From NCBI GenBank assembly GCA_026414805.1, contig JAOAIH010000023.1:1-40069 (forward strand): a stretch of 40,069 bases of DNA. Direction: 5' to 3'. Source of the stretch: Spirochaetota bacterium. Lineage in GTDB: Bacteria; Spirochaetota; UBA4802; UB4802. Both the position numbers and the translations under genes were made by a program. Of the stretch, positions 29,429 to 32,295 are shown piece by piece. Within the stretch, counting starts at the first letter, position 1; every line of letters starts with the position of its first letter. A model generated the notes under the pieces. That model made no database searches. It was not told where the DNA came from and saw nothing but the letters and a program-made list of their open reading frames with translations.

Positions 29429-29458
29429 TCCAGTTAATTTACTATATGAGGTGTTTAC

Positions 29459-29551
29459 ATGAAGTCACTTGTTGCACAAAAGGATAACTCTGTGACCATA
29501 GCACAGTGTTGTGCAAAAATCTCACCAATCGTTGCAGGTTGCCACGATTAA
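29459..29551 (+). CDS. 30-residue cysteine-containing peptide, putative RiPP precursor
   Basis: The reading frame encodes 30 residues: a 16-residue polar leader-like part (MKSLVAQKDNSVTIAQ) and a C-terminal CCAKISPIVAGCHD with C17, C18 and C28. GAGGTG is 6 nt upstream of the ATG, the strongest ribosome site in this operon, and the frame ends with TAA. It lies 30 nt after the ArsM-like gene and just before a stable hairpin and a radical SAM/SPASM gene. That is the usual position of a ribosomally made, modified peptide. It is not a known family to me. An alternative is a small thiol peptide that binds a metal(loid) without modification. Confidence 0.7.
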   Translation: MKSLVAQKDNSVTIAQCCAKISPIVAGCHD

Positions 29552-29560
29552 TCTATGCAA

Positions 29561-29593
29561 CCACCTGTTATTGGTAGCACCAGTAACAGGTGG
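29561..29593 (+). promoter_or_regulatory. Strong intercistronic RNA hairpin between peptide gene and radical SAM gene
   Basis: CCACCTGTTA (29561-29570) pairs perfectly with 29584-29593, and the stem continues through a U-G pair into TGGT/ACCA with an AGC loop, giving about 15 base pairs in 33 nt. The following bases (GACAACTTTAC) are not a U-tract, so it is not a classical terminator. It starts 9 nt after the peptide stop codon and ends 26 nt before the maturase ATG. Such a stem would let the short peptide mRNA be more abundant than the enzyme mRNA. Confidence 0.8.
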
Positions 29594-29619: not shown

Positions 29620-30969
29620 ATGCGCTTATCACACTACACAATTATCAGCAAGCTGTATGATGGAGACAACTATTGCATACTAAATCCGTTAACAAAACAG
29701 GCCGACATCATTACCGGCTTGGAAATGGAGCAGATCATTTCTGGTACCTTTGACCAAAAGCTTCTTAAACAAAAGGGCTATGTTCTAACAGAGGATGAGG
29801 AAAAGCTGCTTTACCGCAGTGCGTATTTGGATTTTTTAGATATGCGCGACAACTCAGAGGTGCAGATCTTTTTTGTACCCTGGTATGCATGCAATTTTGC
29901 CTGTTCTTATTGCTATCAATCAGGATATGAGCACGCATCTGGCTTGCTATCAAAAGAAGTTATTGATGCTTTTTATGGCTATATTACCACACAAATACAA
30001 AAACCAAAATATATTACTCTTTTTGGCGGTGAACCATTACTTGAATCATCACATGCAAAGGAATTAATTTCCTACTTTATTGAAAAAGCTAATAATTACG
30101 GATTGTCATTGGCGATAGTTACCAATGGATATACCCTCAGTTCATATATTGCTACTCTTAAAAAAGCATCAATCCGCGAAATTCAAGTAACACTTGATGG
30201 AACTGAAGAAGTGCACAACGCACGCAGGTATACACACACAAAAGCACCAACATTTGAGGCGATAGTAACCGGAATAGATGTTGCGTTGTCAGAAAATATC
30301 CCCATTAACTTACGAGTTGTTGTTGATGCCCAAAACATAAACAATCTTCCAAAGCTTGCCCAATTTGCCATTGATAGAGGATGGACAAAGAATCCATTAT
30401 TTAAAACACAAATTGGCAGAAATTATGAACTTCACTCTTGTCAGGCAGACAACGCAAAACTTTTTGACAGAGCATCCCTCTATGAAAAAATATATGCACT
30501 GATTATACAACACCCCTATATTTTGCAATTCCATAGACCTGCATTTTCAATAAGCAAATTCTTATTTGAAAATGGCACTATGCCACATCCTCTGTTTGAT
30601 GCATGTCCAGGGTGCAAAACCGAATGGGCTTTTGATTACACCGGCACAATATACCCATGTACTGCAATGGTGGGCAAAAAAGGTGAAGACGTTGGTACAT
30701 TTTATCCTGAAATTTCACTGAATCACGATTATATAAAAGAATGGCAGAACCGCGATATTACCACAATAGAACAGTGCAAGCAATGCGAAAAAAGCTTACT
30801 GTGCGGTGGTGGCTGCGCTGCACTTGCCAAAAATAAAACAGGTCAAATACTTAGCCCTGATTGCAGGCCACAAGATCAATTGCTGTCAATGGGCATTTCA
30901 CTGTATTTTGAAAAAGGCATTACACACGATGGCTATTCTCATACATCAAGTTGTAATTGCTTACGCTAA
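29620..30969 (+). CDS. Radical SAM/SPASM peptide maturase
   Basis: This 449-residue protein has an N-terminal domain of about 80 residues of the kind that often binds leader peptides. The radical SAM motif is C91-x3-C95-x2-C98 (ACNFACSYC), with GGEP at 136-139. The SPASM region has C329, C332, C347, C386, C389, C395, C399 and C415, enough for two auxiliary [4Fe-4S] clusters, and the tail ends SCNC (C445, C447). This architecture is that of anSME-like and RiPP-maturing enzymes that make thioether, C-C or epimerised products. I start at 29620 (AAGG upstream), because the longer frame begins inside the hairpin. The obvious substrate is the 30-residue peptide just upstream. Confidence 0.88.
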   Translation: MRLSHYTIISKLYDGDNYCILNPLTKQADIITGLEMEQIISGTFDQKLLKQKGYVLTEDEEKLLYRSAYLDFLDMRDNSEVQIFFVPWYACNFACSYCYQSGYEHASGLLSKEVIDAFYGYITTQIQKPKYITLFGGEPLLESSHAKELISYFIEKANNYGLSLAIVTNGYTLSSYIATLKKASIREIQVTLDGTEEVHNARRYTHTKAPTFEAIVTGIDVALSENIPINLRVVVDAQNINNLPKLAQFAIDRGWTKNPLFKTQIGRNYELHSCQADNAKLFDRASLYEKIYALIIQHPYILQFHRPAFSISKFLFENGTMPHPLFDACPGCKTEWAFDYTGTIYPCTAMVGKKGEDVGTFYPEISLNHDYIKEWQNRDITTIEQCKQCEKSLLCGGGCAALAKNKTGQILSPDCRPQDQLLSMGISLYFEKGITHDGYSHTSSCNCLR

Positions 30970-30999: not shown

Positions 31000-32295
31000 A
31001 TGAGTGGAAGAATTAAGTATATCAATGCATCACAATATGAAGAAGTAGTATTAAAGGGTAACAGTGTTATTGTAGATTTTTATTCTACAGAATGCCCGCC
31101 ATGTGAAGCGCTGGCAGCAAAATTTGAGCCACTCAGCGAAATTTTTGGCAACGACATAACATTTATAAAAATATTTAGACAGGAAAACCGCCAATTAGCT
31201 CAATCCTTAGGGATACTGTCATCCCCTACTGTATTATTTTACAAAAATGGTTTGGAAGTAGGCACACGTCTGTCGGGGAGCATAAAACGCTCTGAACTTT
31301 TAGACAATATAAAGCTATTATTACCTGAAAGCAGGTTTAATCAGTTACTATCGCACATACAACCCGTCACCACTTATACTGATATTCTTATTCTGGGAGC
31401 TGGTCCTGCCGGTTTAACTGCAGGTATTTATGCTGCGCAGGCTAAATTAAAAACTATCATCGTGGACACTCAACTTCCTGGAGGACAGGTGCAGACTACG
31501 CATATGGTTTCCAACTATCCTGGTTTTGCCAAACCCATCGAAGGATTTATGCTAATGCATTACATGAGTGAGCAGGCTAAAGAAGCAGGGTGCCAATATA
31601 GAGTTGCTGTTGACGTTACTAGCATAAACCTTAAAGAGAAATATATCATAGTAGACGGGATTGAAACAATATACGCAAAAAAGATAATTCTTGCCACAGG
31701 GTGCAGCTATCGCCAACTCAATGTTCCCGGCGAAGTAGAATACAAGGGCAAAGGCATTTCGTACTGTGCAACATGTGATGCAAAATATTATCAGGACAAG
31801 CATGTAGTTGTGATTGGTGGCGGGAATTCAGCTATTGAAGAGTCACTGTTCATTGCCAAATTTGCACGTGCCATAACAATAGTACATCAATTTGATAAAC
31901 TGCAGGCAAATAAGGAAGCACAGGAAAAAGCATTTGCCAATGAAAAAATATCATTTATGTTTTCCCATGAACCACGGGCATTCATAAAAAATGCTGATGA
32001 CAGTATGACAGTTGAAGTTGAAAATGTGAAAACCGGAAATCGTTCAACAATACTATGTGATGGCGTTTTCATTTTTGCAGGAATGAAACCCAATATTATA
32101 CATGATGACCTGGAAAATATAAATGGATACCTGATAACTGATGAATATATGCACACATCAATTCCCGATGTATTTGCTGCAGGAGATATTCGTTATAAAC
32201 CATACAGACAGATTACAACTGCTGTATCTGACGGAACCGTTGCTGCAATCACCGCGGTTAAGGAACTAGAAGAAGCCACAGTTGTAGCTAAGTAA
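31000..32295 (+). CDS. Thioredoxin-thioredoxin reductase fusion protein
   Basis: This 431-residue protein joins two complete enzymes. Residues 1-110 are a thioredoxin fold with C32-P-P-C35 (ECPPC instead of WCGPC). Residues 125-431 are a thioredoxin reductase, with FAD motif GAGPAGLTAG, the redox pair C256-A-T-C259, NADPH motif GGGNSA and AGDIRYKPYRQI. The thioredoxin-first order differs from the Mycobacterium leprae fusion. It is 30 nt after the radical SAM gene with GGAG upstream, so it belongs to the operon. It could reduce the cysteines of the peptide or supply thiols to the ArsM-like enzyme. Its stop abuts the convergent lipoprotein gene without a spacer. Confidence 0.92.
   Translation: MSGRIKYINASQYEEVVLKGNSVIVDFYSTECPPCEALAAKFEPLSEIFGNDITFIKIFRQENRQLAQSLGILSSPTVLFYKNGLEVGTRLSGSIKRSELLDNIKLLLPESRFNQLLSHIQPVTTYTDILILGAGPAGLTAGIYAAQAKLKTIIVDTQLPGGQVQTTHMVSNYPGFAKPIEGFMLMHYMSEQAKEAGCQYRVAVDVTSINLKEKYIIVDGIETIYAKKIILATGCSYRQLNVPGEVEYKGKGISYCATCDAKYYQDKHVVVIGGGNSAIEESLFIAKFARAITIVHQFDKLQANKEAQEKAFANEKISFMFSHEPRAFIKNADDSMTVEVENVKTGNRSTILCDGVFIFAGMKPNIIHDDLENINGYLITDEYMHTSIPDVFAAGDIRYKPYRQITTAVSDGTVAAITAVKELEEATVVAK

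Follow-up and report, generated by a model that had tools for sequence, protein, structure and literature searches.

A short cysteine peptide of a conserved family, encoded beside a radical SAM/SPASM maturase, an ArsM-like methyltransferase and a thioredoxin–thioredoxin reductase fusion

The open reading frame (ORF) at positions 29459–29551 (+) of the window, by which we mean the whole stretch of 40,069 nucleotides of Spirochaetota DNA that was analysed, is a real gene. It encodes MKSLVAQKDNSVTIAQCCAKISPIVAGCHD in 30 codons, from an ATG start to a TAA stop, and is the founding member of a family of short precursor peptides not described before. The peptide is almost certainly a precursor of the RiPP type. 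It belongs to a four-gene cassette, recurring across several phyla and mostly in uncultured bacteria, whose other members are an ArsM-like methyltransferase, a radical SAM/SPASM maturase and a thioredoxin–thioredoxin reductase (Trx–TrxR) fusion (Table 1). We think it reasonably likely that the precursor is modified by the radical SAM enzyme and has an intracellular thiol or metalloid role together with the methyltransferase and the Trx–TrxR fusion. The gene lies under the usual gene-calling size and is overlooked by standard annotation.

Table 1. Positions of the cassette genes and associated elements in the window
Feature	Position	Strand	Remarks
ArsM-like SAM methyltransferase, putative As(III)-binding triad C27, C115, C165	28787..29428	+	From alignment and fold
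Ribosome binding site GAGGTG	29448..29453	+	5 nt 5′ of the peptide ATG; from sequence
Precursor peptide gene, 30 aa, MKSLVAQKDNSVTIAQCCAKISPIVAGCHD	29459..29551	+	Homologues in 87 radical SAM loci and in 37/392 genomes of the phylum
Core region AQCCAKISPIVAGCHD	29501..29548	+	Consensus AQCC[AST]Kx[ST]xxxxGCHD
Stem-loop, 15 bp, 3-nt loop, no U-tract	29561..29593	+	Between peptide and radical SAM genes
Radical SAM/SPASM peptide maturase, N-terminal RRE-like domain	29620..30969	+	Alternative open GTG start at 29590
Thioredoxin–thioredoxin reductase fusion	31000..32295	+	Cassette partner by genome co-occurrence

The size of the peptide ORF is uninformative by itself because the surrounding 10 kb contains 119 ORFs of 25 aa or more. 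Conservation was the test, and it is the existence of homologues that raises this ORF above chance. The sequence-only reading had described a 30-codon gene, running from ATG to TAA, with three cysteines; both the sequence, which places the cysteines at positions 17, 18 and 28, and the homologues confirm this. It had also placed GAGGTG 6 nt before the ATG and called it the best ribosome site of the operon. The motif is there with a spacing of 5 nt, and visual inspection ranks it above those of the methyltransferase and radical SAM genes, the two with which it was compared. Spirochaete homologues of the peptide also have G-rich sites 5′ of the start.

Relatives were fetched with the downstream radical SAM protein and so blind to the peptide. 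Of these loci, 87 had a small ORF with the same ending, which gave 80 distinct sequences and was nearly always immediately 5′ of the radical SAM gene; ten positions (A, Q, C, C, K, S, G, C, H and D) were invariant in 80/80 distinct peptides. This set is the only unbiased test of invariance, since the genome-wide DNA pattern and a later regular expression preset Q, C, C, K, [S/T], G, C, H and D. The whole family has 108 distinct members of 30–53 aa. Its leader is basic, often begins MKSL or MKSV and varies in both sequence and length; its C-terminal core is near-invariant, AQCCAKxSxxxxGCHD. One or two extra cysteines (CC, CGC or CAC) lie 5′ of the core in 36/108 leaders, about one third, for example those of L017, L018, L025, L032, L009 and L010.

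At the DNA level, synonymous codons vary freely at the fixed residues among 111 distinct core DNAs, whose selection was determined in part by the search pattern. Cysteine is encoded by TGT or TGC (56 and 55, respectively) and aspartate by GAC or GAT (61 and 50), and the invariant residues use both or all of their codons. The sequence-only reading had named frame-breaking changes or loss of the cysteines in close relatives as the outcome that would count against it. This comparison was made and the gene passed: the frame is intact in all four same-genus copies, and each pair differs by 2–11 synonymous codons, with no more than one amino-acid replacement across the 16 core codons.

The family is found in Spirochaetota, Bacteroidales, Paludibacter, Ignavibacteria, Kapaibacterium, Elusimicrobia and Bdellovibrionales, among the taxa named in the records. 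In the phylum of the window the core pattern matched in 37/392 genomes and the same pattern read backwards, used as a control, in 0/392. The family is sparse across Bacteroidota as a whole (5/247). Pfam and NCBIfam scans of the peptide and 26 homologues gave no family beyond scattered chance-level matches; the Pfam ‘BTK motif’ (0.007, 11 members) was taken as a short Cys/His coincidence. A plasmid search returned only radical SAM proteins 26–28% identical, in Rhodococcus. Our literature searches found no paper on the peptide family, nothing joining radical SAM, RiPP, arsenic and SPASM, and nothing on the peptide cassette under ArsM/RiPP or Spirochaete/RiPP; the core motif strings turned up just one paper on venom and one on cyber-security, neither of them related. 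The parts consulted of two RiPP-mining studies, of Bacteroidales (PMC10352776) and of anaerobes (PMC4289311), make no mention of the peptide. A core conserved this strongly points to a single, fixed chemical structure that serves a basic cellular function rather than to a variable antibiotic.

The peptide and the radical SAM gene occur together almost without exception. With presence of the radical SAM gene defined by E below 1e-40, each of the two was found in 37/392 genomes of the phylum and 36 genomes had both (Fisher p about 1e-48). Both exceptions lie at contig ends: in G201 the maturase starts directly after the peptide and the contig then ends, and in G104 the radical SAM match runs into the contig end. 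The five genomes that have only weak radical SAM homologues (about 1e-30) are all without the peptide. For radical SAM loci with no adjacent peptide, the peptide was found elsewhere in the genome in four of five cases. L087 and L091 come from genomes in which the peptide adjoins the methyltransferase and the radical SAM gene has a separate location.

The other two cassette genes were compared in 74 genomes from matching families. A full-length homologue of the Trx–TrxR fusion was present in 32/36 peptide-positive genomes versus 0/38 peptide-negative genomes (p 7e-17). The methyltransferase of the cassette type occurs in peptide-positive genomes and usually adjoins the peptide; the peptide-negative genomes have only more distant ArsM proteins, at most 44% identical, in about nine of them. 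No dedicated protease or exporter was recurrent among the 25 commonest of 68 neighbour families (74 neighbours), and the product is therefore probably intracellular.

The stem-loop that follows the peptide gene is strongly folded (−24.8 kcal/mol, z −5.0). Across 110 loci, mean z was −3.4 for the 70 nt that follow the peptide stop, versus −0.7 and −0.3 for the upstream and downstream controls. A stem-loop is present here in about two thirds of these loci, where its position is kept and the sequences differ. It is not called a terminator because a U-tract is absent in the window; a T-run follows the stem-loop in some relatives. It is probably a processing, stability or partial-attenuation element, and its likely purpose is to raise the precursor over the enzyme, which it would then allow to be outnumbered.

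The maturase has the cysteines of a radical SAM/SPASM enzyme: those of the CxxxCxxC motif (C91, C95 and C98) and of the SPASM domain (C329, C347, C386, C389, C395, C399 and C415) are invariant in 29 homologues. In its AlphaFold model (pLDDT 90) the N-terminal domain has a bbb-aaa arrangement and resembles an RRE, as judged from the order of secondary structure rather than by an RRE-specific search. The best PDB folds for the model were 5wgg and 5why (SCIFF maturase), followed by sulfatase maturases and ChlB, with PqqE far lower. NCBIfam places the enzyme near the CefB, TIGR04463, PapB, Clo7bot and geopeptide maturases and far below the cut-off of each (bits/cut-off: NF038107, 128/600; TIGR04463, 126/525; NF047865, 122/340; TIGR04334, 107/600; TIGR04280, 100/400; TIGR03974, 92/425). 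All 29 homologues match NF038107, TIGR04463 and TIGR04334 below 1e-20 and 28/29 match TIGR04280. As the maturase is so far below every curated RiPP-maturase cut-off, the type of bond that it makes cannot be read from family membership.

The peptide resembles a RiPP precursor in being short, with a variable leader and a conserved C-terminal core, and in having a linked modifying enzyme with a domain that is RRE-like in its secondary structure. The suggestion of the sequence-only reading that its length and split fit a short leader–core peptide is strongly backed by these features, by the co-occurrence with the radical SAM gene and by the stem-loop. The basic N-terminal half would be the leader, bound by the RRE-like domain of the maturase, as the fold and the linkage suggest. 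The radical SAM enzyme presumably acts on the peptide; judging from the relatives of the maturase, it would modify the core, most probably through a bond between the sulfur of a cysteine and a carbon of a side chain. We give such thioether chemistry slightly better than an even chance.

Among known systems, the closest in fold are the SCIFF ranthipeptides (CteA/CteB; TIGR03974), in which a short cysteine peptide, spread across wide taxa, is likewise paired with a maturase of the radical SAM/SPASM type. There the acceptor is a Thr or Asp that lies a few residues beyond the Cys (PMC8326336), a spacing that resembles C18-X3-S/T22 and C28-X1-D30 in the cassette peptide. However, the cassette peptide is unrelated in sequence and has three core cysteines rather than six, and the cassette occurs in other phyla with a linked ArsM-like methyltransferase and Trx–TrxR fusion. 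PapB joins Cys to the side chain of Asp and accepts Cys-Xn-Asp with n = 0–6 (PMC9413430). The core of the cassette peptide ends in Cys-His-Asp but, in contrast to the PapA/PapB (freyrasin) ranthipeptides, is single and non-repeated. Given the PapB spacings of 0–6 and the Thr or Asp acceptors of SCIFF, C18-X3-S/T22 and C28-X1-D30 are the best candidates for bridging among the invariant pairs; one bridge would leave two thiols. The best-scoring NCBIfam relatives of the maturase, CefB (NF038107), TIGR04463 and geopeptide (TIGR04280), all have small Cys-rich peptide partners, but no NCBIfam peptide family matches the cassette peptide. The cassette offers a tractable handle on the role of widely conserved Cys-type radical SAM peptides.

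The cysteines C27, C115 and C165 of the methyltransferase align with Cys72, 174 and 224 of CmArsM. They are invariant in 79/79, 83/83 and 83/83 homologues, respectively, and are likewise unchanged in 33 divergent members, of which many have tails rich in cysteine. A published filter for ArsM asks for at least 3 of 4 conserved cysteines (PMC5552862), and the cassette methyltransferase has the equivalents of the three in CmArsM. In a fold search the best 13 PDB matches were arsenic methyltransferases. The enzyme shares with ArsM and AS3MT both the fold and the three As(III)-binding cysteine positions of CmArsM; unlike them, it is short (213 aa), tied to a peptide and below the arsenite-methyltransferase cut-off of NCBIfam (NF008823; 197.6 bits against 263). 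ArsM-type enzymes reportedly need thiol reduction, as described in work on their disulfide cascade, and a dedicated Trx–TrxR fusion would fit this need.

Across genomes, ACR3 arsenite efflux was not enriched with the peptide (25/36 peptide-positive versus 27/38 peptide-negative genomes). Only in G055 is the cassette a neighbour of ACR3 and ArsC; in that genome a gene of the ArsR/SmtB type is oriented divergently from the peptide gene. In the genome of the window the cassette is away from the ars operon, and this separate operon and a second, canonical ArsM, from which the cassette methyltransferase is distinct, are encoded elsewhere. Ordinary defence against arsenic therefore has no need of the cassette, and together with the lack of ACR3 enrichment this makes the cassette methyltransferase a specialised relative of ArsM. 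The ars operon (G000:C21:1000-9000, L171) consists of ArsR-like, permease, ACR3, radical SAM (directly after ACR3) and ArsC-like genes, of which ACR3 was assigned by family search and the others by eye. The second ArsM homologue, of canonical length, lies away from the operon (G000:C4, L168:4443-5264).

The sequence-only reading had proposed that the three thiols of the peptide could form a trigonal As(III) site or be thioether or disulfide donors. A tri-thiol site and a thioether on those same cysteines exclude each other; thioether formation would fit the maturase family, and a role as disulfide donors is no more than possible. An arsenic role is plausible; what suggests it is the neighbouring methyltransferase, with its ArsM-type cysteine triad and fold, and the gene arrangement in G055, rather than the peptide thiols. 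We put a metalloid role for the cassette somewhat short of even, as a tentative assignment. The product would act with the ArsM-like methyltransferase, which holds the ArsM-type As(III) cysteines, and the Trx–TrxR fusion would re-reduce the thiols oxidised in each cycle. In a more specific version, which we regard as possible but doubtful, the mature peptide is a RiPP thiol cofactor or carrier dedicated to trivalent arsenic or another soft metalloid, passing it to or from the methyltransferase, and Trx–TrxR recycles the thiols. If this were true, the peptide would be the first RiPP with a known part in the methylation of metalloids, and the pathway might end in an organoarsenical peptide. The cassette is also a handle on the question of dedicated thiol cofactors for the methylation of metalloids in anaerobes.

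Several other explanations bear on the same data. That the ORF arose by chance, or is a translated attenuator (uORF) whose peptide has no function, might be suggested by its short length, its place between two genes and the stem-loop that follows. This can be taken as refuted for practical purposes by selection at the amino-acid level on 111 distinct core DNAs, by genomes in which the peptide gene lies away from the radical SAM gene and by the empty reversed-pattern control. Alternatively, the peptide might stay unmodified and use three free thiols to bind As(III) and pass it to the methyltransferase, with the radical SAM enzyme acting on something else. The three invariant cysteines and the linkage to a methyltransferase with the arsenic triad would suit such a peptide. 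We nevertheless find it very unlikely, given the near one-to-one co-occurrence with a radical SAM/SPASM enzyme having an RRE-like domain and the equal invariance of Q, K, S, G, H and D, for which simple chelation gives no explanation.

Two alternatives accept that the peptide is modified. PQQ and mycofactocin also derive from a conserved short precursor and a radical SAM/SPASM enzyme with no evident exporter. By analogy with PqqA and MftA, the cassette peptide might be consumed as the scaffold of a small molecule: the radical SAM enzyme would cross-link or trim the GCHD end, the methyltransferase would methylate the product and Trx–TrxR would use or reduce the resulting redox cofactor. The preservation of the core across several phyla down to the C-terminal residue, the near-perfect linkage to a dedicated redox flavoenzyme and the lack of a linked exporter or immunity gene among the 25 commonest of the 68 neighbour families are all compatible with a scaffold. 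However, the core is Cys-based and its three invariant cysteines exceed the needs of a two-residue cofactor, no linked protease was found among the neighbours examined and the best folds for the maturase are thioether or sulfatase maturases rather than PqqE; no sequence relation to these precursors is claimed. We therefore judge a scaffold to be fairly improbable. It is also unlikely, in our view, that the peptide is itself the substrate of the ArsM-like protein, methylated for example at a Cys sulfur, and becomes a signal or bioactive product with no involvement of arsenic. Methyltransferases are common RiPP tailoring enzymes, in the split loci L095 and L096 the methyltransferase accompanies the peptide rather than the radical SAM gene, and ACR3 is not enriched. 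Yet an enzyme that methylates peptides would have no need of the triad, divergent members retain each of the three As(III)-binding cysteines, the closest folds are arsenic methyltransferases and a linked exporter is lacking from the same 25 neighbour families.

The surroundings of the cassette vary between loci. In two Paludibacter loci (L017 and L019) extra genes encoding 377–411 aa are inserted between the peptide and the maturase. Genes related to thiols and sulfur recur beside the cassette in Bacteroidota loci (L026, L029, L045, L063, L066 and others); the neighbours include DUF6132, DUF302, DUF1847, OsmC, NAD(P)H/FAD–rhodanese fusions, SQR-like proteins and stand-alone thioredoxins. In 26 Bacteroidota loci an ORF of ∼145 aa with a zinc ribbon (cluster c3; e.g. 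L041:3447-3887) lies on the opposite strand just 5′ of the methyltransferase. By eye this protein looks like a fragment of an IS1595-type transposase, possibly domesticated as a regulator. In several spirochaete loci, and also in the one from Bdellovibrionales, a gene for a MarR-family regulator lies 5′ of the methyltransferase (L165:8024-8434, L166:8117-8575, L167:8030-8443, L052, L076 and L082).
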